Shown: positions 5,643 to 16,432 of the stretch, in pieces
Layout: each line of letters starts with the position of its first letter
Position numbering within the stretch: the stretch's first letter is position 1
Assembly (NCBI GenBank): GCA_009885805.1
Contig: VFJZ01000006.1
Coordinates: forward strand, 1-64,000
DNA: 64,000 nucleotides
Source: Actinomycetota bacterium
GTDB lineage: Bacteria > Actinomycetota > Thermoleophilia > Gaiellales > F1-60-MAGs149
Reading direction: 5' to 3'
Program-made: the position numbers and the translations under genes
Notes under the pieces: generated by a model
Told to the model about the DNA's origin: nothing
Databases searched by the model: none
The model's input: only the letters and a program-made list of their open reading frames with translations

Positions 5643-6575
5643 TCAGGGCATGGTGCCGGCCACGAGCCGGCGCCGCCAGATCTCCGAGGCCGCCAACTCG
5701 GCCACCATGGTCTCGACCAGAACCGCCACGAGGGGGTCGTCCGGCACGGCAACGTGCAGGGCGGCCCCCTCCATCGCGGTCCCGACGGCGACGATCCGGG
5801 CCGCTCGCTCTCGCGCCCAGCGCATCACCTCGGCGTCGTAGCGCGAACCCGTGAACAGCAGGGCCGTGTAGCCGGCCTGCTTCGTCAGGTAGAGGTCGAC
5901 GTGCAGCCAGTCGCCGGTCTCGCAGCCATCGGCGGGAAGGCGAGGCGCCTCGCGAAGCATCAGCGCCGACTGCAGTGCCGACGACGACCGCTCGTACGGC
6001 GCGATCGTGTAGATCGGCCCGTCGCCGATCAGGTCGACGAGCGGGCCGAGCCAGGCGTTGCGTTCGGCGATGACCGCACGGGCAGCGGCGACCGCAGGGT
6101 GCAGCCGTTCGACGGAGACGCCGGCCAGGAGATGGAGGATCGCGAGCGTCGCCTGGAACGAACGGCAGGCGATGCCGCCATCCTCGGGTCCCGCCGCGAG
6201 GTCGATGACCGCGTCAGCGCTCGCTGCGATTGGCCCGTCGGGAGCGTTCGTGATGGCGATGGTCTGGCTGATGCCGTGGTGGCGTGCCAGCGCCTCCACC
6301 GTCTCGGCGCTGCCGCCCGAGGCGGAGATGCCGATCGCGACGGTGTCCCGCGACGGCGGGAACGGCGCGGCCGCCGACGCAAGCTCAGCGTGCGCGTCGA
6401 TTCCGCGGCTCCGCAGCAGCGTAGCCACCGACTGGGCGGCGAACTGCGAGCTACCCATGCCGATCAGCAGAACGCGGCCGGCGTCGAGACCGGTGAGACC
6501 GGCGTGGCGGTGGAGAAGTGCCTCGAGCGCGTCGGGTTCCCGCTCGATGTCGGCCTGGAACCCGGGCTGCTGCAC
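5643..6575 (-). CDS. SIS-domain sugar isomerase-like protein (GlmS C-terminal half-like)
   Basis: 310-residue protein with two SIS (sugar isomerase) folds, resembling the isomerase half of glucosamine-6-phosphate synthase/deaminase proteins. The phosphosugar-binding loops are IGMGSSQFAAQSVA (about residues 38-51) and ISASGGSAETVEAL (about 83-96). There is no glutaminase domain, so it cannot be a full GlmS; an aminosugar-phosphate deaminase/isomerase or a ligand-binding role fits better. The start is GTG. It lies 16 bases downstream of a maltokinase/glucosamine-kinase-like gene on the same strand, so the two are probably co-transcribed and act on the same sugar. The substrate is inferred, not shown. 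Confidence 0.78.
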   Translation of the reverse strand: MQQPGFQADIEREPDALEALLHRHAGLTGLDAGRVLLIGMGSSQFAAQSVATLLRSRGIDAHAELASAAAPFPPSRDTVAIGISASGGSAETVEALARHHGISQTIAITNAPDGPIAASADAVIDLAAGPEDGGIACRSFQATLAILHLLAGVSVERLHPAVAAARAVIAERNAWLGPLVDLIGDGPIYTIAPYERSSSALQSALMLREAPRLPADGCETGDWLHVDLYLTKQAGYTALLFTGSRYDAEVMRWARERAARIVAVGTAMEGAALHVAVPDDPLVAVLVETMVAELAASEIWRRRLVAGTMP

Positions 6576-6591
6576 GCGCGGAGCCTACCGG

Positions 6592-7938
6592 TCAGCCATG
6601 CCGGAAGAGCCAGCGCATGCCCAGTCGCGGGGCGTAGAGCCACGACGGCAGGAAGCGTGCTGCATAGACGAACTCGTACGTTTCCTTCTCCAGTTCGAAC
6701 GCGCGCAGGAGTTCGCGGTCGAGGACGATGCCGGAGTCGCCGAGACCGGCCGCATACGCCGCGACGCACCGCTGCTCGGCGCGGGCGATCCAGGCGTCGA
6801 CGTCCATCGCCGGCGAGACACCGTGCGAGCGTAGCTCCGCGGTGCGGGCGACGTGGTCGAGCGAGCGGACCAGGCAGGCCAGGTCGCGCAGCGGACTGGC
6901 CGGCCGGCGTCGCTCCGCCATCGTGCGCGTCGGCTCGCCCTCGAAGTCGACGACGAACACACCGGACGGTGCGCGCAGGAACTGCCCCCAGTGCAGGTCG
7001 CCGTGGGTGCGAGCGAGCAGCGGCGGCGCGGCCGTCTCGAACGCGGCCAGCCCGGCCCTGATCCGCGGCGCGAGCGCCTGCAACTCCTGGCCCGCCTCGC
7101 CGTCCACGACGGCTAGCGCCTGCGTCAGCTGCAGTTCGGCATCCGCTCGCCAGCGCCGCAGGTGGGCGGCGGTGCCGGGCGCGGTGCCAAGTTCGGCGGC
7201 GAGGGCGACGTGCAGGGCGGCCGCGATCGCGCCTGCCTCGGCAACCTCGTCGGTCGACGCCTCGAGGTCGGGCGGGTCGTGACCGGCAATCCGCCGGACG
7301 AGCCGACCGGTGAGTCCCTCCCAGGGGTCCTCGGCGTCGGCGATGAAGCGCTGGACCACCGCGAGCGCCGTGTCGCGACCCTCGTCGTCGATGTGGTGCA
7401 TCGAGCCGCAGAAGGCCGGGGTGTAGGGGAACGCGCCGTCGGCGAGCGCGCGCCCGAGTTCGACCTCCGGATGCTCGCCGGGCTCCAGGCGCCGGTAGAG
7501 CTTCAGGACCTGGCGCTCGCCGAGGATGACCGACGTGTTCGACTGGTCGACACCGAGCGGGCGCTCTCCGGACAGCCCGGTCTCGGCCAGCAGTGCCTCG
7601 GTCGGCCGCATCTCGAACGTCCCGTGCAGACCGGCGATCGTGCTGCCGTCGCGCAGGGCCTCGGTCAGGGCCAGCCAGTAGCCCTCGCCGATCGCCGGTT
7701 CCCACACGTGGCCGGCCGCCGACACGTAGGCCGGCAGCGCGTATCGCTCACCGGCGCCGGCGTCGGCGTAGGAGACGTCCACCACGAGCAGGTAGCCCTC
7801 GCTGAGGCCGGGGACGGGCATCGCGTCGGCGAGCCGGAGCCCGGCGATACCGCGTCCCTTGCCGGCGAACCAGCGGGCGCTCTCGAGCCGCGTGGTGTCC
7901 AGCCCACGCAGCACCCGCGTCAGATCGAGCACGGCCAT
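6592..7938 (-). CDS. Maltokinase-like sugar kinase, possibly a glucosamine kinase
   Basis: 448-residue aminoglycoside-phosphotransferase-fold kinase of the maltokinase (Mak/Pep2) group. Diagnostic segments are DQSNTSVILG (131-140, N-lobe), LKLYRR with the ATP-binding lysine (about 146), the catalytic loop HGDLHWGQ (312-319) and the metal-binding DFEGEP (331-336). The length matches free-standing maltokinases (about 440-450 residues). Actinobacterial glucosamine kinases belong to the same fold family. Here the neighbour is a SIS protein rather than trehalose synthase or GlgE, which favours aminosugar phosphorylation. That preference is inference; maltose remains possible. Start is ATG and the gene follows a glycosyltransferase gene on the same strand by 9 bases. 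Confidence 0.85.
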   Translation of the reverse strand: MAVLDLTRVLRGLDTTRLESARWFAGKGRGIAGLRLADAMPVPGLSEGYLLVVDVSYADAGAGERYALPAYVSAAGHVWEPAIGEGYWLALTEALRDGSTIAGLHGTFEMRPTEALLAETGLSGERPLGVDQSNTSVILGERQVLKLYRRLEPGEHPEVELGRALADGAFPYTPAFCGSMHHIDDEGRDTALAVVQRFIADAEDPWEGLTGRLVRRIAGHDPPDLEASTDEVAEAGAIAAALHVALAAELGTAPGTAAHLRRWRADAELQLTQALAVVDGEAGQELQALAPRIRAGLAAFETAAPPLLARTHGDLHWGQFLRAPSGVFVVDFEGEPTRTMAERRRPASPLRDLACLVRSLDHVARTAELRSHGVSPAMDVDAWIARAEQRCVAAYAAGLGDSGIVLDRELLRAFELEKETYEFVYAARFLPSWLYAPRLGMRWLFRHG

Positions 7939-7947
7939 CTTCTGACT

Positions 7948-9231
7948 CTAGTGCCGGGCGGCACGTTCGATCAGATCGGCGGCGCGAACCCGGCCCGGGT
8001 TGGCCTTCACACGTGCCGAGATCTTCTGCATTCTGTCGCGTAATCTCGTGTCGTCTAGCAGTCGATCCAGTGCGCTCGTGAGATCAGCCGGCCTCCACTC
8101 GTACGTCGGCAGCCGGACGCCGAACCCGAGCTCGTCGACGCGACTCGCGTTGTCGTACTGATCCCAGAACAGCGGCAGCACGACCATCGGCAGACCGTGG
8201 TGGAAGCACTCGGTGGCGGTGTTGTTCCCGCCGTGCGTGATGACGAGGTCGCAGAGTGGCATCAGCAGCGGCTGCGGCAGGTACTCGGCACCCCACTGAT
8301 TCGGGTGGAGGCCGATCTCGTCCGCCTGCGGGCCCTTCGAGACGATGTAGCGGTGCGGCGTGTCGGCCAACGCGTCGCAGAGGCGCTGCATCAGCGCGAC
8401 GTCGGCCGAGCCGAGCGAGCCAAGCGAGAGGTAGATCAGCGACCCGCTGCCGCTGGCGATGTGATCGGGAAGCTCCGTCTCGCCGGAGTCCTCGCGCACG
8501 CACGTGTCGATGCGATGCCATGTCGACCCGAGTGGCCGCTCGCGGGCGTAGTCAGCTTCGGCCGGGTAGAGGTAGAGGTTGAGGTGCGGCGATTCGTGGA
8601 TGAACGCTCGCGGCGGCAGCGGCGGCGCTCCCCGGTCCTGCACGAACGCGTCGAACGCGGACCAGAGCGGACCGAGCTGCGCGTCGTACGCCTCCCAGAA
8701 CGTCGCCCAGCCGGTGCGATCCGCCGTCGGGTAGCCGGAGAAGACCGGCGGGACCGCCGGGTCGGTGATCTCGGCCGGATTGCACGAGACGATCCGGCCC
8801 CAGCGGCGCGCGCGCGCCGGCAATGCCGGGAAGCAGCAGACGTTGTCCTCGATCACGATGTCGGGATCGAGCTCGTCGATGATCGCGCAGAGGCGGTCGT
8901 CGACGTACCTGGCACCGTCGACCAGCGCCTGCATCGTCGGTGCGATGAACGTCTCGAGCTGGTCGATCGTGGGCTTGCGGAACTCCGGGGACGTCGCGGC
9001 GATGAAGTCCTTCCAGAACTGGCCCGGCGCCTCGTCGGTCGCCGGCGGTGGCCCGAGGCGCATCAACCGCTCCTCGAAGCCCTGGGCCTCGAGGCTACCG
9101 GCGAACGACTCCTCGACGATGAACACCACGCGGGCGCCCCGTTCACGCAGCACCTGACCGATGCCGACGCAGTTGTTCGTCGGGCCGTACGCGCCTTCAG
9201 GGAAGAACACCACCGTCGGTTTCGCCGCCAA
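7948..9231 (-). CDS. MGT-family glycosyltransferase (GT1, UDP-glycosyltransferase fold)
   Basis: GT-B-fold glycosyltransferase, 427 residues from the start chosen here. The C-terminal donor-binding signature is clear: THGGNNTATECFHHGLP followed by PLFWDQYDNA, the UDPGT/MGT pattern. The N-terminal strand PTVVFFPEGAYGP begins directly after the chosen start. I prefer TTG at 9231 because CGGAGGT lies five bases upstream; an in-frame ATG at 9264 would add 11 residues with no ribosome site and would leave only 8 bases to the divergent MFS gene. The acceptor (macrolide, phenolic or lipid) is unknown. It heads a three-gene minus-strand unit with the kinase and the SIS protein, so a sugar-related role for the unit is plausible. 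Confidence 0.85.
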   Translation of the reverse strand: MAAKPTVVFFPEGAYGPTNNCVGIGQVLRERGARVVFIVEESFAGSLEAQGFEERLMRLGPPPATDEAPGQFWKDFIAATSPEFRKPTIDQLETFIAPTMQALVDGARYVDDRLCAIIDELDPDIVIEDNVCCFPALPARARRWGRIVSCNPAEITDPAVPPVFSGYPTADRTGWATFWEAYDAQLGPLWSAFDAFVQDRGAPPLPPRAFIHESPHLNLYLYPAEADYARERPLGSTWHRIDTCVREDSGETELPDHIASGSGSLIYLSLGSLGSADVALMQRLCDALADTPHRYIVSKGPQADEIGLHPNQWGAEYLPQPLLMPLCDLVITHGGNNTATECFHHGLPMVVLPLFWDQYDNASRVDELGFGVRLPTYEWRPADLTSALDRLLDDTRLRDRMQKISARVKANPGRVRAADLIERAARH

Positions 9232-9236
9232 GGCCG

Positions 9237-9243
9237 ACCTCCG
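9237..9243 (-). promoter_or_regulatory. Shine-Dalgarno site that decides a TTG start
   Basis: On the minus strand this reads CGGAGGT, five bases before TTG (9231-9229). It is the only strong ribosome site near the glycosyltransferase start, and it argues that the upstream ATG at 9264 is not used. Confidence 0.6.
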
Positions 9244-9272
9244 TTCGCGAGCGACCGCGAACATACCATGCG

Positions 9273-10484
9273 GTGGTGGCCGTCGCCCTTCCCGCCCCGC
9301 TGCGGCTGCCGCTGTTCCGTGCCTGGTGGGCGGCGCTGCAGCTGTCGAACGCGGGCGCCTGGATGCAGCAGGTGGCGGCCGGGTTCGTGATGTACCAGCT
9401 GACCTCGTCGGCGTTCATGGTCGGCGTTCTCGGCCTCGCGCAGCGGGGACCGTCCCTGCTGCTGACGCTGCTCGGCGGCCGCCTCGCCGACCGGCGTGAC
9501 CGGCGACATCTGCTGTCCGTGACTCTCGCGACGCAGGGTCTGTCGGCAGCCGCGCTGACCGTGGTCGCGCTGGCCGGAGCGCTGTCGCCGACCACGCTCA
9601 TCGTCGCCAGTCTTGTCGGCGGCGCCGCTCAGGCGCTCCAGTACCCGGCGCAGCTCGCCACGATCTCGAGTCTGGTCCCCGATGCCAGCGTCCATGCGGC
9701 CGTCTCGCTGAACTCGGCCGGGTTCAATCTCGCCCGCGTCGTCGGCCCAGCGGCGGCGGGCGTCCTCCTGCTCCACGACCACGGCGTGGTCGTCTGTTTC
9801 GCGGCGAACGCCCTGTCGTACCTGCTGCCGGTCGTGGTCGTTCGGCGCCTGCCGCACGTCAGCGCCGGTGCGCTCGCCGGGACCGCGACGGTCCGCGCCG
9901 GCCTCGTCCACGCCTGGCGTTCGCCGCCGCTGCGTCGCCTGATCGGCGGCTGCGCGATCTTCGCGGCATGTGCAGCGCCGCTGACGGTGCTCGCGCCGGC
10001 CTACGCGGCCGCGGTCGGCGGCGGTCCCGGCACCCTCGGCGCGCTGCTCGCAGCGTTCGGCCTCGGCGCAGTCGCCGGAGCGGCGGTCGCCGTCCGCATC
10101 GCCCGCCGCATCGGCAGGCACCGCCTGATCTCGGGCGCGATGCTCCTGTACGCCCTGTTCGGGGGCCTCGCCGCGGTCGCCGGCCCGGTGGCTCTGGCCG
10201 CCGCTCTGTGTGCTGCCGCTGGCGCCTGCTGGGTGGCCGTCTTCGCCTCCACCAACGCCTCGATCCAGCTCCTGGCGCCCGACGCGATTCGCGGCCGGCT
10301 GCTCTCGCTGTATCTCTGGGCGCTGGTCGGTCCGATGGCGCTGTCGGGCCTCGCCGTGGGTGCACTCGCCGGGCCGCTCGGCACGAGGGCGGCGCTCGCG
10401 CTGGCCGTCGTGCCCCTCGCGCTGTTCGCGGTCTACGCGCTCGCGCGTCCGGTACCGGGCATCGATGACGAGGCCCGCGCGTGA
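9273..10484 (+). CDS. MFS transporter, DHA3/EntS-like drug or siderophore exporter
   Basis: 403-residue inner-membrane protein with about 10-12 hydrophobic helices. The major-facilitator loop 2-3 signature is GGRLADRRDRRHLL (about residues 68-81), and the body matches the EntS/DHA3 exporter type that moves hydrophobic small molecules out by proton antiport. The start is GTG, following an ATACC stretch; an ATG at 9268 is in another frame. The stop overlaps the next start by four bases (GTGA), so it is coupled to a VOC protein, a pairing often seen in resistance modules. The transported compound cannot be told. Confidence 0.85.
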   Translation: MVAVALPAPLRLPLFRAWWAALQLSNAGAWMQQVAAGFVMYQLTSSAFMVGVLGLAQRGPSLLLTLLGGRLADRRDRRHLLSVTLATQGLSAAALTVVALAGALSPTTLIVASLVGGAAQALQYPAQLATISSLVPDASVHAAVSLNSAGFNLARVVGPAAAGVLLLHDHGVVVCFAANALSYLLPVVVVRRLPHVSAGALAGTATVRAGLVHAWRSPPLRRLIGGCAIFAACAAPLTVLAPAYAAAVGGGPGTLGALLAAFGLGAVAGAAVAVRIARRIGRHRLISGAMLLYALFGGLAAVAGPVALAAALCAAAGACWVAVFASTNASIQLLAPDAIRGRLLSLYLWALVGPMALSGLAVGALAGPLGTRAALALAVVPLALFAVYALARPVPGIDDEARA

Positions 10485-10841: not shown

Positions 10842-11666
10842 TCACCGTGGCGCGGTGGCATGCCAGCGTTCGAAGGCTCGCCCGAACGCCGCCAGCAGCG
10901 CCGCATGCAGATCCTCCGATCCCGCTTCGCGCAGGCGGCGGGCCCAGCGGCGACGCTCGCGAGCGCGATCCAGAAAGACGCCGTCGCCGAGCGCGGTCGC
11001 CTCTGCGAGCCCGGCCTCGGAGCGCGCCTCGATCGCCCGCCGGATCCGATCCGCCTCGGCCGGTCGCCCCTCGAGCCGGCGCAGGTCGACCAGGCAGTCG
11101 GGGCAGGGCCGGACGACCGGTAGGTCGACGGCGGGCCCGGCGCAGAGACCGCAGACGGGACAGCCGTAGGCGGCCAGCCGGACGCGATCGGAGCGGGCAG
11201 CACCGCCACTCGCGAGCAGCACCCAGACCGGCGCGTCGTCGCCATCGGTCTCGGTGCCACGAACGGTTTCGAGTTCGTCGCCGGCGTAGGGCCAGATGCG
11301 GACGAGGTCGCCGGCGCGGAGGCCGGTTCGCGTGCAGAGGCGCGCGACCTGCGGTGGCGCCGGCCGTTCGGGCCATGGTTCCGGCGGGCCCGAGTCGAGG
11401 CGAACGACCTGCGGCCCGCCCGCCGCGTCCGGCCACGGTAGGTCCTGCTCGATCCAGTCGGCGACCGTCTCCTTCGCCTCGTTGAGGGCTCGCGTCAGCG
11501 TCGCGGCGGCCGCCGCCTTGCGCTCGGTTGCGGCGTGGAGGTCCGGATGTGTGCGCGTGACCCGCGCGCGCCAGGCGGCGTTGAGCTCTCGCGCGTCGAC
11601 CGGAGGCGTGAGGCCGAGGAGCCAGAGGGCCCGCGCGCAGGCGCTGGCCGACGGCCGGCGGGACAT
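10842..11666 (-). CDS. J-domain protein with a zinc-ribbon-like cysteine cluster
   Basis: 274-residue protein beginning with a compact J-domain (residues about 12-72). It contains the essential His-Pro-Asp triplet at 40-42 (TRTHPDLH), which in DnaJ proteins stimulates DnaK ATPase. The middle (about 115-165) is a beta-rich module, and residues 169-191 hold Cys169, Cys172, Cys175, Cys188 and Cys191, a probable zinc site. There is no G/F linker or DnaJ-type C-terminal substrate domain, so it is not DnaJ or CbpA but a specialised co-chaperone. Its ATG overlaps the glutamate dehydrogenase stop as TGATG, so it is translated with that very large enzyme. The start was chosen for this overlap and for the J-domain; the frame is open further upstream. 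Confidence 0.75.
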   Translation of the reverse strand: MSRRPSASACARALWLLGLTPPVDARELNAAWRARVTRTHPDLHAATERKAAAAATLTRALNEAKETVADWIEQDLPWPDAAGGPQVVRLDSGPPEPWPERPAPPQVARLCTRTGLRAGDLVRIWPYAGDELETVRGTETDGDDAPVWVLLASGGAARSDRVRLAAYGCPVCGLCAGPAVDLPVVRPCPDCLVDLRRLEGRPAEADRIRRAIEARSEAGLAEATALGDGVFLDRARERRRWARRLREAGSEDLHAALLAAFGRAFERWHATAPR

Positions 11667-14600
11667 CAGCTGACGACGCCGCGGACCTGGCGCAGCGCAA
11701 CGGTCAGCGCAGCGATGCCGACCTCGACGTCCGACTCCAGGCCGGCCAGGAGGCGCGTGAGGCGGTCGTAGGTTTCCGCGCGCGCTGCCAGGTACAGCTC
11801 GACCGCGTCCGTGACCGGCAGCCCGGGCGCTCCGGCGAGCACCTTCTCGGCGACTTCGCGCCGGACCGCCATCAGGTCGTCCTCCATCGCCAGCGCGGCC
11901 CACCGCTCCCAGCGAGTTGCGACACGCAGCGCGAACACCCGCTGTTCGAGCGCGTCCAGGTGCAGGCGCTCGCCGGCCAGGAAGAAGGCGGCCGCCACCT
12001 CTGCCAACGACCGTCCCGTGGCGGTCGCGACGAGCGTGATGTCGGGCGCGTGGCTGAGGTCCGGCTGCCAGGCGTGGCGCCGCGCCACGTCCGCTGGCAC
12101 GCCGCGCGCGACGAGGGCGTCGGCCTGCCGCTCGCGTTCGACGCGCCAGGCTTCCGGCCCGCTGCAGTCGATCACGGCCGACAGCTCGGCGAACGCCGTG
12201 CCGTGCAGGCGCACGAGGTCGTCGAGCCCGCTCGCCTGGAGGTGGAGGAGGTACCAGCGAGCGACGTCGGACACCAGCTGATCGACGCCCACCATCAGCT
12301 CGTTCTGGAGCGCCGGGTCCATCGTCCCGTCGAGCGCCTCGACCGCCGCCCAGCGGGCGACGGCAGCTGTCACCTGGCGGGCGATGTAGTACGCCCGCGA
12401 GACCTCGGCCTGGTCGGCGCCCGTCTCGGAGCAGAGCCGCGAGACGAACGTGATGCCCTGCGAGTTGACGACGTCGTTGGCGATGATCGTCGCGACCAGT
12501 TCGCGTCGCAGCGCGTGCCGACCGAGGAGGTGGCCGTACCGTTCGACGACGGCGGGCGGGAAGTAGCCGGCCAGCTCGCGGTCGAGGTAGGAGTCGTCGA
12601 CGAGGTTCGACTCGAGCAGCGCCTGCTTGAGGCTCCGCTTGGCGTACGCGAGCAGGACGCAGAGCTCGGGCCGCGCCATCCCACGGCCCTGGCGCTGGCG
12701 CTCGGCCATCTCGTCCGGGGTCGGCAGGTACTCGATCGCCCGGTCGAGGAGACCCTCGCCTTCCAGCCGCTGCATGAGATCGTCGTACGCCTCGATCCGC
12801 TCCGCCGAGACGGCGACCTCCTGCGAGAGGATCTGCGCCTGGAGGTAGTTGTCGTACAGGACGTGGCTGCAGACGTCGTCCTCGACGGCCGCGAGCAACT
12901 CGTCGCGTTGTTTGCGTGTGAGGTCGCCCGCCGCCTCGGCGATGCCGAGCAGGATCTTCAGATTGACCTCGTGGTCGGACGAGTCGACGCCGCCGGAGTT
13001 GTCGATCGCGTCGTTGTTGATCCGCCCGCCGGCGTTCGCAAACTCGATGCGCCCGCGCTGCGTGAAGCCGAGGTTGCCGCCCTCCCCGACCACGCGGCAG
13101 CGAAGCTCGCGGCCATCGGCCCGGATCGCGTCGTTGAGTCGATCGCCGGCCTCGGCGTGGGACTCGTCGGATGCCTTGACGAAGGTGCCGATGCCGCCGT
13201 TCCAGAACAGGTCGACGGGAGCGCGCAGTACGGCCGCCTTCAGCTCGGCTGGTGCCAGTGCCGCGACGTCATCCGCGAGGCCGAGCGCTCGCCGCACCTC
13301 CGCGGAGATCGGCACGCTCTTGGCGTCGAGAGCGAACACGCCGCCGCCGGCGCTGATCAGCGACCGGTCGTAGTCGTCCCACGACGAGCCGGTGAGCTCG
13401 AACAGGCGCCGTCGCTCGATGAAACTGGTTGCCGGATCGGGCTCCGGGTCGACGAACAGGTGCCGGTGGTCGAACGCCGCGACCAGCCGGATCTGCTCGG
13501 ACAGGAGCATGCCGTTGCCGAAGACGTCGCCCGACATGTCGCCGACGCCGGTCACCGTGAACGGCCGCGTGGCGACGTCGAAACCGAGTTCGCGGAAATG
13601 GCGCTTGACCGACTCCCAGGCGCCGCGCGCGGTGATGCCGAGCTTCTTGTGGTCGTACCCGGCCGACCCGCCCGACGCGAACGCGTCGCCGAGCCAGAAG
13701 CCGTACGCTTCGGAGATGGCGTTGGCGGTGTCCGACAGGGCGGCCGTGCCCTTGTCCGCCGCGACGACCAGATACGGATCGTCACCGTCGAGGATGCGCA
13801 CGCCCTCCGGGTGCACGACCTCGCCGGCGACGAGGTTGTCGGTGATGTCGAGCAGGCCCGACACCAGCGTGGTGTACTGGCGGACGACGTCCTCGCGGAG
13901 CGCCTGCCGGTCGGCGGGTGGGCGTTTCAGGACGAAGCCGCCCTTCGAGCCGACCGGCACGATCACCGCGTTCTTCACCATCTGCGCCTTCATCAGGCCG
14001 AGGATCTCGGTGCGGTAATCCTCCGGCCGATCCGACCAGCGGATACCGCCCCGGGCGACCCGTCCGCCGCGCAGGTGAATGCCCTCCATCGCCGGCGAGT
14101 AGACGAAGATCTCGTACAGCGGATGCGGTTTCGGCATCAGCGGCACCGCGGACGACGCGAGCTTGAACGACAGGTGCGGCTTGTCTGCGAAGACGTTCGT
14201 CCGCACGGTCGCATCGACGGTGCCGAGGTGGTTGCGGAGAATGCGGTCATCGTCGAGGGACGTGATCGCATCGAGGTCGGCGAGGATCTCGCGTCGCAGC
14301 GCGTCCTCGGCGCCGGGAACGATCGTCTGCAACGGGTCGAATCGCAACTCGAAGTAGCGGACGAGCTTCGCAGCGACCTGCGGATGACGTGCGAACGCCG
14401 CGTTCTGGTACTCGATCGGCAGCGCCGCGCCGACCCGCTGGCGGTACTTGCGGTACGCCCGGACGACGGCCACCTGCCGCCACGTCAGGCCGGCCGAGAT
14501 GACCAGACGGTTGAGGGCGTCGGACTCGGCCCGGTCGGTCCAGACGGCGGCGATGCAGTCGGCGACCCGGTCGCCGCAGTCGGACAGGTCGAGCAGGCGG

Positions 14601-16432
14601 CCGTGCTCGTCGAGGACGCCGAAGTTGTGCAGGAACGTCGCGCCGTCGCCTCCATTCAGACGCGTCGGCACCTCCTCGTCGACCTGCAGCCCGAGGTCCT
14701 CCAGGATCGGCAGGATGTCCGACAGCTGCACCTTGCCGCCCGTCTTGTAGAGCCCGACCCGCGTCAGGTCCTGCGGCCCGCCGCGCTCGTTCTGGAGGGC
14801 GACCGCGAACGGCTCGCCCGCGGTGAGGCGCTCGAACTCGGCGACGTCGACGAGCGCCATCGAGATGTCGGTCGAGTTCTTGTAGTAGTCGGGGAAGCGT
14901 TGCCCGTAGGTGTCGGCGAGGCGCGCACCGCGCTCCTCGCCGTGCAGCGCGACGAGGCGCTCACGGAGGCGGTCGTCCCAGGTCCGCGTCAGCGCGATCA
15001 CCTCGCGCTCGAGATCGGGCGGGGAGACGTCCGGGATCTCGCCGTCGACGTGGACGGTGAAGTGGATGCGGGCCTGCTCGGTCTCCCCGAGCGTCAGGTA
15101 GTAGTCGACCGACGTGCCGCCGAACCGCGTCATGAACAGTTCCTGCAGGCGCTGGCGCAACGCCGCGTTGAAGCGGTCGCGCGGCAGCGCGAGCGTGATC
15201 GCCAGCGAGCGACCCTGCGCGTCGCGGCGCACGAAGAGGCGCACCTGGCGACGCTCCTCGAGATGGAGAAGCCCCATCACCTCGCGGCCGAGGTCGGTCA
15301 CGTCGGCGCCGAACAGGTCGTCCTTCGGGAACGACTCGTAGAGCGCGACGGCGGCCTTGTAGTCGTGGGTGCCGTCGATCAGGTCCTCGGCGACGATGAT
15401 CTGGCGCAGCTTGCGGCGGAGGATCGGGACGCGGCTCGCCGGCTCGCCGTACGCCTTCGACGTGAAGAGGCCGATCAGGCGAAGCTCACCGACGATCTCG
15501 CCGTCGGGCGCGACGCGCTTGACGCTGACGTAGTCCATGCGGACGTGCCGATGGACGGTGGCGAACCGATTCGTCTTCGAGACGAGCAGCAGGTCGCCAC
15601 CGACGATCCGCTCGCGCAGCGTCGGCTCGATCGAGACGAGTGGCATCGGCGTTCGGTAGTGGCTCGTCGAGTCGTCCGCGAGGATCCCGAGGCCGGAAGC
15701 GGGGACGATCGAGACGGTGCCGCCGCCGATCGCGTACTCGCGGTAGCCGAGGAAGATGAAACTCCCGGCTTCGAGCCACTCGAGGAACGCGACGGCCTCG
15801 TCGACCTCGTCGGCCGCGTAGCGGACGCTCCCGGCGCGGGCGACGTCGGCCATCATCGGGACGAGCGCTCGCATCGCGTCGAAGTCGCGGACGGCCGCCT
15901 GCACGTCGCCGAGGACGCCACGGACGCTGTCGGCGAGATCGGCCAACTCGGTGGCGTCGAGCCGCCGCTCGAGCTCGAAATGCATGACCGACTCGCGCGT
16001 CTCGGTGTCACGCGCATGGAGGACGGCGTTGATCCGGCCCGACGCATCGCGCGTAACACCGACGACCGGGTGAATCACCTCGCGCACGCCGAGCCCTCGG
16101 GCCTCGAGCTCCGACGTGACGGAGTCGACGAGGAAGGGCGAATCCGGCGTGCTGGTCTCGAGGACCGAGCCGGCGACGGCGTAGCCGTGCGCCTGCAGTG
16201 TCGGGTTGAACGCCCGGACAGCGAGCGGGGCAGTGCCGCGGGCGTCGGCGAAGTCGAACACTCCCACGATCTCGCCGAACAGCTCCTCGGCGGACATCGC
16301 GGCCAGGGCCTCGTCGGGCAGGCGACGCAGGTAGGCCTCGGCGAAGGCGTGGAGGACCGGCGCGCGCTCGCCGGCCCGCTCGCCGATCCGTGCGCGCAGT
16401 TCGGCGACGACGGGACTGATCGTAGAACTCAC
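11666..16432 (-). CDS. gdhB: NAD-specific glutamate dehydrogenase, large (about 180 kDa) type
   Basis: 1,588-residue catabolic NAD-glutamate dehydrogenase (glutamate to 2-oxoglutarate plus ammonium), of the L-180 class known from Streptomyces and Pseudomonas (about 1,600-1,650 residues). The N-terminal half is regulatory with ACT-like segments. The catalytic core is recognised by GGIRWSDRPEDYRTEILGLM, by MVKNAVIVPVGSKGGFVLK with the substrate lysine region, and by CRVVGEGGNLGFTQRGRIEF of the NAD domain. The start is GTG. It is cytoplasmic and multimeric in the family. The gene is followed by an overlapping J-domain gene and preceded by a universal stress gene. No frameshift is seen over nearly 4.8 kb, in contrast to several broken genes further along. 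Confidence 0.96.
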   Translation of the reverse strand: MSSTISPVVAELRARIGERAGERAPVLHAFAEAYLRRLPDEALAAMSAEELFGEIVGVFDFADARGTAPLAVRAFNPTLQAHGYAVAGSVLETSTPDSPFLVDSVTSELEARGLGVREVIHPVVGVTRDASGRINAVLHARDTETRESVMHFELERRLDATELADLADSVRGVLGDVQAAVRDFDAMRALVPMMADVARAGSVRYAADEVDEAVAFLEWLEAGSFIFLGYREYAIGGGTVSIVPASGLGILADDSTSHYRTPMPLVSIEPTLRERIVGGDLLLVSKTNRFATVHRHVRMDYVSVKRVAPDGEIVGELRLIGLFTSKAYGEPASRVPILRRKLRQIIVAEDLIDGTHDYKAAVALYESFPKDDLFGADVTDLGREVMGLLHLEERRQVRLFVRRDAQGRSLAITLALPRDRFNAALRQRLQELFMTRFGGTSVDYYLTLGETEQARIHFTVHVDGEIPDVSPPDLEREVIALTRTWDDRLRERLVALHGEERGARLADTYGQRFPDYYKNSTDISMALVDVAEFERLTAGEPFAVALQNERGGPQDLTRVGLYKTGGKVQLSDILPILEDLGLQVDEEVPTRLNGGDGATFLHNFGVLDEHGRLLDLSDCGDRVADCIAAVWTDRAESDALNRLVISAGLTWRQVAVVRAYRKYRQRVGAALPIEYQNAAFARHPQVAAKLVRYFELRFDPLQTIVPGAEDALRREILADLDAITSLDDDRILRNHLGTVDATVRTNVFADKPHLSFKLASSAVPLMPKPHPLYEIFVYSPAMEGIHLRGGRVARGGIRWSDRPEDYRTEILGLMKAQMVKNAVIVPVGSKGGFVLKRPPADRQALREDVVRQYTTLVSGLLDITDNLVAGEVVHPEGVRILDGDDPYLVVAADKGTAALSDTANAISEAYGFWLGDAFASGGSAGYDHKKLGITARGAWESVKRHFRELGFDVATRPFTVTGVGDMSGDVFGNGMLLSEQIRLVAAFDHRHLFVDPEPDPATSFIERRRLFELTGSSWDDYDRSLISAGGGVFALDAKSVPISAEVRRALGLADDVAALAPAELKAAVLRAPVDLFWNGGIGTFVKASDESHAEAGDRLNDAIRADGRELRCRVVGEGGNLGFTQRGRIEFANAGGRINNDAIDNSGGVDSSDHEVNLKILLGIAEAAGDLTRKQRDELLAAVEDDVCSHVLYDNYLQAQILSQEVAVSAERIEAYDDLMQRLEGEGLLDRAIEYLPTPDEMAERQRQGRGMARPELCVLLAYAKRSLKQALLESNLVDDSYLDRELAGYFPPAVVERYGHLLGRHALRRELVATIIANDVVNSQGITFVSRLCSETGADQAEVSRAYYIARQVTAAVARWAAVEALDGTMDPALQNELMVGVDQLVSDVARWYLLHLQASGLDDLVRLHGTAFAELSAVIDCSGPEAWRVERERQADALVARGVPADVARRHAWQPDLSHAPDITLVATATGRSLAEVAAAFFLAGERLHLDALEQRVFALRVATRWERWAALAMEDDLMAVRREVAEKVLAGAPGLPVTDAVELYLAARAETYDRLTRLLAGLESDVEVGIAALTVALRQVRGVVS

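Follow-up and report, generated by a model that had tools for sequence, protein, structure and literature searches.

A glycosyltransferase, sugar kinase and SIS protein gene cluster with a hybrid kinase pocket in an order of Actinomycetota

Results

The window, i.e. the whole stretch of 64,000 nucleotides analysed here, encodes on its minus strand, in the order of transcription, a GT1-type glycosyltransferase, a maltokinase-fold kinase and a SIS protein, as read from the open reading frames and their translations. We consider it fairly probable that the last two form a sugar kinase-isomerase pair serving the glycosyltransferase in a three-gene operon of the SjGlcNK-cluster kind, the kinase substrate being a monosaccharide. 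The kinase-SIS-glycosyltransferase unit is not new, since a 2019 paper reports the same unit (PMC6520443). What is new here is a third pocket fingerprint among the kinases of the window's order, and the presence of Pot-type ABC transporters beside the glycosyltransferase in several genomes.

That paper gives the following precedent. Manso et al. 2019 described a maltokinase paralogue in Actinobacteria that is tightly linked to genes for SIS (COG2222) and GT1 proteins, and found that glucosamine, unlike maltose, is phosphorylated by SjGlcNK and MsGlcNK (PMC6520443). They proposed a glucosamine kinase signature in helix 12, Q-x(2)-RE-x(2)-YA-x(3)-LP-x-W, and put it forward as an annotation rule for such enzymes. 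Gln405 of SjGlcNK contacts the amino group of glucosamine, and its replacement by Ala largely reduced the activity on glucosamine and left that on glucose unchanged, glucose being used only weakly by the wild-type enzyme (Km >100 mM). In maltokinase the second glucose of maltose is held by Tyr370 and Arg438 (PMC6520443). We found no later follow-up papers on the cluster among the open-licence literature, which is weak evidence of absence.

The three genes are tightly packed. The glycosyltransferase, of GT1/MGT type with UDPGT and EryCIII-like C matches by Pfam and a place beside the kinase gene that is conserved in all 15 trio genomes of the order, lies at 7948..9264 (-), so the upstream glycosyltransferase named in the initial annotation does exist; by eye, a TTG at about 9231, preceded by GGAGG, looks a better start codon than the ATG of the frame list. 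The kinase (448 aa) lies at 6592..7938 (-) and the SIS protein (310 aa, GTG start) at 5643..6575 (-), and both assignments draw on the reading frame, Pfam, alignment and fold. Because all three genes are on one strand with gaps of only 9 bases (7939..7947, -) and 16 bases (6576..6591, -), they are predicted to form a probable three-gene operon. The initial annotation was also right that the SIS gene follows the kinase after 16 bases and that the kinase carries DQSNTS, HGDLH (at residue 312) and DFEGEP (at residue 331).

Several neighbours were read by eye from their translations. The trio is followed downstream by a convergent gene for a sigma-70-type factor. On the upstream side an MFS transporter gene (9273-10484) diverges from the glycosyltransferase gene, with the two starts about 40 bases apart if the latter begins at 9231, and the same MFS gene cluster is also near the glycosyltransferase at three other loci (L147, L123 and L124). 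A 1588-aa frame at 11666-16432 reads as a large NAD-type glutamate dehydrogenase.

The kinase pocket combines features of both known enzymes. We applied the pocket residue equivalences given in PMC6520443 to our own kinase alignment, and the pocket of the window kinase reads W206, D314, H316, H362, K418, Y421, E422, Y425, A426, L430, P431 and W433. The residues common to the two known enzymes (W195, D300, H302, E409, Y412 and W420 in SjGlcNK numbers) are all kept, so that the D-x-H of the catalytic loop and the four further positions expected of a glucosamine kinase are present as D314, H316, W206, E422, Y425 and W433. The maltokinase contacts to the second glucose are replaced as in SjGlcNK, Tyr370 by His362 and Arg438 by Leu430. 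The helix-12 motif EKETYEFVYAARFLPSW (residues 417-433; 6640..6690, -), aligned with the published signature, departs from it and reads K-x2-YE-x2-YA-x3-LP-x-W, with Lys (K418) in place of Gln405 and Tyr (Y421) in place of Arg408. The initial annotation suggested checking the active-site residues against those of characterised glucosamine kinases, and this check therefore gives a mismatch at the key position.

The likeness to each characterised system is accordingly partial. The SjGlcNK cluster of Streptacidiphilus jiangxiensis (PDB 6HWJ/6HWK/6HWL), described in PMC6520443, has in common with the window the gene trio, the kinase fold, the shared sugar-site residues and the His and Leu that replace the maltose contacts, but it has Gln405, Arg408 and a DFD loop where the window kinase has Lys, Tyr and DFE. 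Unlike that cluster, the window has no PGM/UDPGP gene that we could see beside the trio, and its order is not recognisable among those listed in that paper. With the maltokinases Mak/Pep2 (PDB 4O7O, 4U94 and 5JY7) the window kinase shares the fold, the Mak_N_cap domain, Lys405, Tyr408 and the DFE loop, but it lacks the Tyr370 and Arg438 contacts and has Ala instead of Glu at position 413, and TreS and GlgE, the partners of Mak/Pep2 in its pathway, were not found in the window's genome.

Family scores and fold leave the kinase between the two groups. Pfam finds Mak_N_cap and APH domains. The NCBIfam model for glucosamine kinases (GlcN_kinase, NF041273) scores 190.5 bits against a cut-off of 550, and the maltokinase model (TreS_Cterm) scores slightly higher, 214 against a cut-off of 375; in phmmer the M. 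smegmatis maltokinase likewise ranks slightly above the glucosamine kinase. The predicted structure is confident (pLDDT 91) and its best Foldseek match in the PDB is the glucosamine kinase 6hwl (E 1.3e-27), with the maltokinase 4u94 nearly as good (E 3.3e-25). Since Foldseek scores the two enzymes alike, the fold does not settle the substrate.

We surveyed 129 genomes of the window's order and 396 genomes sampled from the phylum, counting identical places once (L004 = L030, L005 = L031 and L016 = L049). A kinase of this type is encoded in 15 of the 129 genomes, and in all 15 it adjoins genes for both SIS (COG2222) and GT1 proteins, the genomic link described for glucosamine kinases; the initial annotation had held that the kinase-SIS pairing would fall if it did not recur in other genomes, and it does recur. 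The trios have two layouts, with the glycosyltransferase gene colinear or divergent, and their kinases are about 36-59% identical, so the linkage has outlasted rearrangement. Weaker kinase matches in the order, ~30% identical, carry the TreS-type motif, and neither SIS nor glycosyltransferase genes were found beside them at the loci whose surroundings were read. Three genomes (G016, G019 and G054) hold both kinds of kinase.

The trio is conserved but not obligate. The glycosyltransferase occurs in 31 genomes of the order, of which 15 hold the trio, one has a locus truncated by the end of its contig and 15 lack both the kinase and the SIS gene, and one further genome of the order (G479) has a partial SIS gene near a contig end. 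The SIS protein was found in 13 of the 396 genomes of the phylum sample, with the kinase motif adjacent in 11. In two genomes outside the order (G176 and G302, loci L165 and L166) the SIS gene adjoins the glycosyltransferase gene with no kinase between, so the SIS protein may be tied to the glycosyltransferase rather than to the kinase. G144 has kinase and glycosyltransferase genes and no SIS match in the stretch examined. At L005 (5370-6106; the same as L031) the SIS gene is broken, residues 5-135 and 200-302 matching in different frames, which is either decay or an assembly error.

The order and the clusters outside it differ in the residue facing the amine. At position 405, 14 of the order's 15 trios have Lys and the fifteenth has Arg, all ten readable clusters outside the order (G082 being the tenth) have Gln, and 17 of 18 TreS-type rows have Lys, the remaining row being trimmed short of the position. 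Position 408 is Tyr in 12 of the 15 trios and Arg or His in three. Among the ten Gln-bearing kinases it is His in seven, Arg in two and Ala in one, and because only two carry Arg the published R408 is not general. A column comparison of the order with the outside clusters gave three separating columns in the kinase (14 versus 9 rows), namely the Glu/Asp of the DFE/DFD loop, the Lys/Gln at 418 and one near the C terminus. At the same threshold no SIS column separates the groups (14 versus 7 rows), and at the set threshold none changes together with the kinase Lys/Gln. A misaligned kinase row with an apparent frame break (L146, G037) was left out of this comparison and of the tree, its motif being taken from L084; the broken-frame SIS row L148 (same place as L031/L005) was left out of the comparison and kept in the 22-row alignment count given below. 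These differences are lineage patterns, and as one single change could account for each, the genome counts are not event counts. A maximum-likelihood tree of 41 rows sets the TreS-type kinases apart by one branch (100/100) and the Gln-bearing kinases by another (100/99), with the Lys/Arg kinases placed between them. If the root is assumed to be on the maltokinase side, Lys would be the older state and the trio would predate Gln.

The SIS protein resembles the isomerase half of GlmS. The initial annotation described two SIS domains; by sequence there is one Pfam match (residues 31-151, 60 bits), and the second domain holds by fold only, because matches to GlmS/GFAT isomerase domains run the length of the AlphaFold model. 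Lower matches are SIS-type deaminases, among them the GlcN-6-P deaminases of P. furiosus and S. maltophilia. The model has a pLDDT of 72 and falls below 50 in the active-site stretch 191-233, and because of this weakness what we say of the active-site residues is taken from the alignment only. In an alignment with the genome's own GlmS, Glu209 and His225 fall on the Glu and His that we take to be the catalytic pair of the GlmS isomerase site, and both are invariant in 22 of 22 rows, so that the protein has the SIS fold with the isomerase-site Glu and His expected of a SIS isomerase or deaminase. The GlmS C-terminal tail carries the Schiff-base lysine, and the same alignment shows this Lys-bearing tail to be absent from the 310-aa protein, which also has no glutaminase domain and is thus not a GlmS. 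Since Glu and His are kept and the tail is missing, chemistry on a sugar-6-phosphate is likely, and amination by glutamine is unlikely. Nor does the protein qualify as NagB-II/GlmD, as the NCBIfam model NagB_SO3506 scores 32.4 bits against a cut-off of 430. With GlmS/GFAT and the NagB-II type deaminases it has in common the fold and the Glu/His pair, but it lies far below the NCBIfam cut-offs and its family has an invariant motif of its own, RExPR...ETGDWxHVDxYL.

The metabolic setting leaves a place for such an enzyme. The window's genome (G000) is 3.56 Mb long and 95% complete. The initial annotation noted that no trehalose synthase or GlgE gene is near, and this extends to the whole genome at that completeness: the best TreS match reaches 22.5 bits (cut-off 678) and belongs to a frame that reads by eye as a glycogen-branching enzyme, and no GlgE domain was matched, an absence that at 95% completeness is not absolute. 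GlmS is encoded on another contig (714 bits), and a protein scoring 240.8 bits (cut-off 225.65) is a candidate NagA. A single protein matches PF01182; considered as a classical NagB, it is instead a 6-phosphogluconolactonase (166 bits, cut-off 124). As no classical NagB was found while NagA and GlmS are present, a SIS-type enzyme could serve as the GlcN-6-P deaminase, a point in favour of glucosamine salvage. Two further uncharacterised SIS proteins of the genome (L119 and L120, on contigs C51 and C32) could instead fill that role.

Pot-type transporters occur near the glycosyltransferase at some loci. A PotD-like (spermidine/putrescine-type) binding protein, mostly with permeases, is encoded within about 4 kb of it at 4 of the 11 trio loci of the order examined with wide flanks (L138, L141, L142 and L148), at 4 of the 15 loci with the glycosyltransferase only (L123, L124, L125 and L127) and at 1 of 9 loci outside the order (L155), where the calls for L124 and L148 come from clustering only, L148 is at a contig end, and several of the genomes share one genus. 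Four of the binding proteins, when scanned, gave 150-180 bits to PotD against a cut-off of 582. No Pot-type transporter lies beside the trio in the window, and we regard the association as a lead and not as a result. Five other loci with the glycosyltransferase only (L128, L130, L134, L135 and L136) have a second kind of ABC transporter, with a binding protein that reads by eye as sulfate/molybdate-like; the one at L128 matches SBP_bac_11 in Pfam.

Discussion

We suggest the following working scheme for the trio. The kinase would move a phosphate from ATP to a monosaccharide bound in a pocket that is without the contacts for the second glucose of maltose. The SIS protein would then convert the sugar phosphate through acid-base chemistry of the GlmS-type Glu/His pair, an aldose-ketose isomerisation that would also release ammonia if the sugar is GlcN-6-P, and the GT1 enzyme would attach a related activated sugar to an acceptor. 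We infer the monosaccharide specificity, the direction of the pathway and the link to the glycosyltransferase product from these features taken together. The substrate of the kinase is most likely glucosamine or glucose. With Lys or Arg where SjGlcNK has the Gln that recognises the amine, the kinases of this order should select for glucosamine less strongly than SjGlcNK does, or not at all. The initial annotation proposed phosphorylation of glucosamine followed by isomerisation or deamination; the route has a precedent in SjGlcNK and MsGlcNK as described in PMC6520443, but the residues at the Gln405 and Arg408 positions (Lys and Tyr) do not back it. With the signature Gln being Lys or Arg in 15 of 15 trios, the proposal loses its main residue-level support, and glucosamine stays a plausible substrate.

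Straight glucosamine salvage, with a true glucosamine kinase despite Lys405 and a NagB-II-like SIS deaminase yielding fructose-6-phosphate and ammonia, is a real possibility to which we give somewhat less than even chances. The precedent in PMC6520443 speaks for it, but the same paper records a large drop in glucosamine activity with unchanged glucose activity in the Gln405Ala mutant, and a Lys or Arg facing the protonated amine should be worse. Glu422, the equivalent of Glu409, is kept and would alone bind the amine, against which stands the Lys or Arg of all 15 trios. The vacancy for a deaminase beside NagA and GlmS, and the two GlcN-6-P deaminases among the fold matches, also favour salvage, although the deaminase could be one of the two other SIS proteins. 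The charged residue in all 15 trios and the missing maltose contacts fit a kinase specific for another monosaccharide, e.g. glucose or a neutral hexose, that feeds the glycosyltransferase, with the SIS protein acting as an aldose-ketose 6-phosphate isomerase. Two of the three separating kinase columns are the Lys/Gln and Glu/Asp differences and the SIS protein has none, and wild-type SjGlcNK already accepts glucose, if weakly (PMC6520443). Against it, the SIS family does not differ between the groups, as would be expected if both handled one and the same downstream sugar, and we rate this possibility as rather less likely than not.

Two further readings are far less probable. An ordinary maltokinase (Pep2/Mak) sitting by chance beside SIS and glycosyltransferase genes would explain Lys405, Tyr408, the DFE loop and the TreS_Cterm score of 214, but His and Leu stand at the positions of Tyr370 and Arg438, neither TreS nor GlgE was found in the 95% complete genome, and the order's TreS-type kinases group on a branch of their own (100/100), with no SIS or glycosyltransferase neighbours, while three genomes hold both kinds of kinase. 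We rejected the maltokinase identity on the pocket residues, the missing partners and the separate branch, and rate this reading very unlikely. A chance neighbourhood, or the remains of an operon whose genes have no joint function, would fit the 15 genomes with the glycosyltransferase alone, the two SIS-glycosyltransferase pairs with no kinase between and the broken or mis-assembled SIS gene at L005/L031; it is barely credible when all 15 kinases of the order adjoin both partners, in two layouts and at about 36-59% identity.

The reading that we favour, a kinase-isomerase pair serving the glycosyltransferase, has its own difficulties: the kinase misses the glucosamine signature at Gln405 and Arg408 and scores 190.5 against 550 bits with the GlcN_kinase model, the trio is not obligate (15 genomes with the glycosyltransferase only and two pairs with no kinase), and the SIS model has its low-confidence stretch just where the active site lies.

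We also speculate, tentatively and with rather more doubt than belief, that the kinase of this order has a third specificity, determined by the Lys or Arg: not for maltose and not for glucosamine, but for some other monosaccharide. Since maltokinases also carry Lys at this position, the partnership with the SIS protein and the glycosyltransferase may predate the Gln-based specificity for glucosamine. If so, other lineages would have acquired the Gln-based specificity afterwards. Across the order the clusters have the same partners but Lys or Arg, so that the gene context and the published fingerprint disagree; therefore either the annotation rule is too narrow or the substrate is different.
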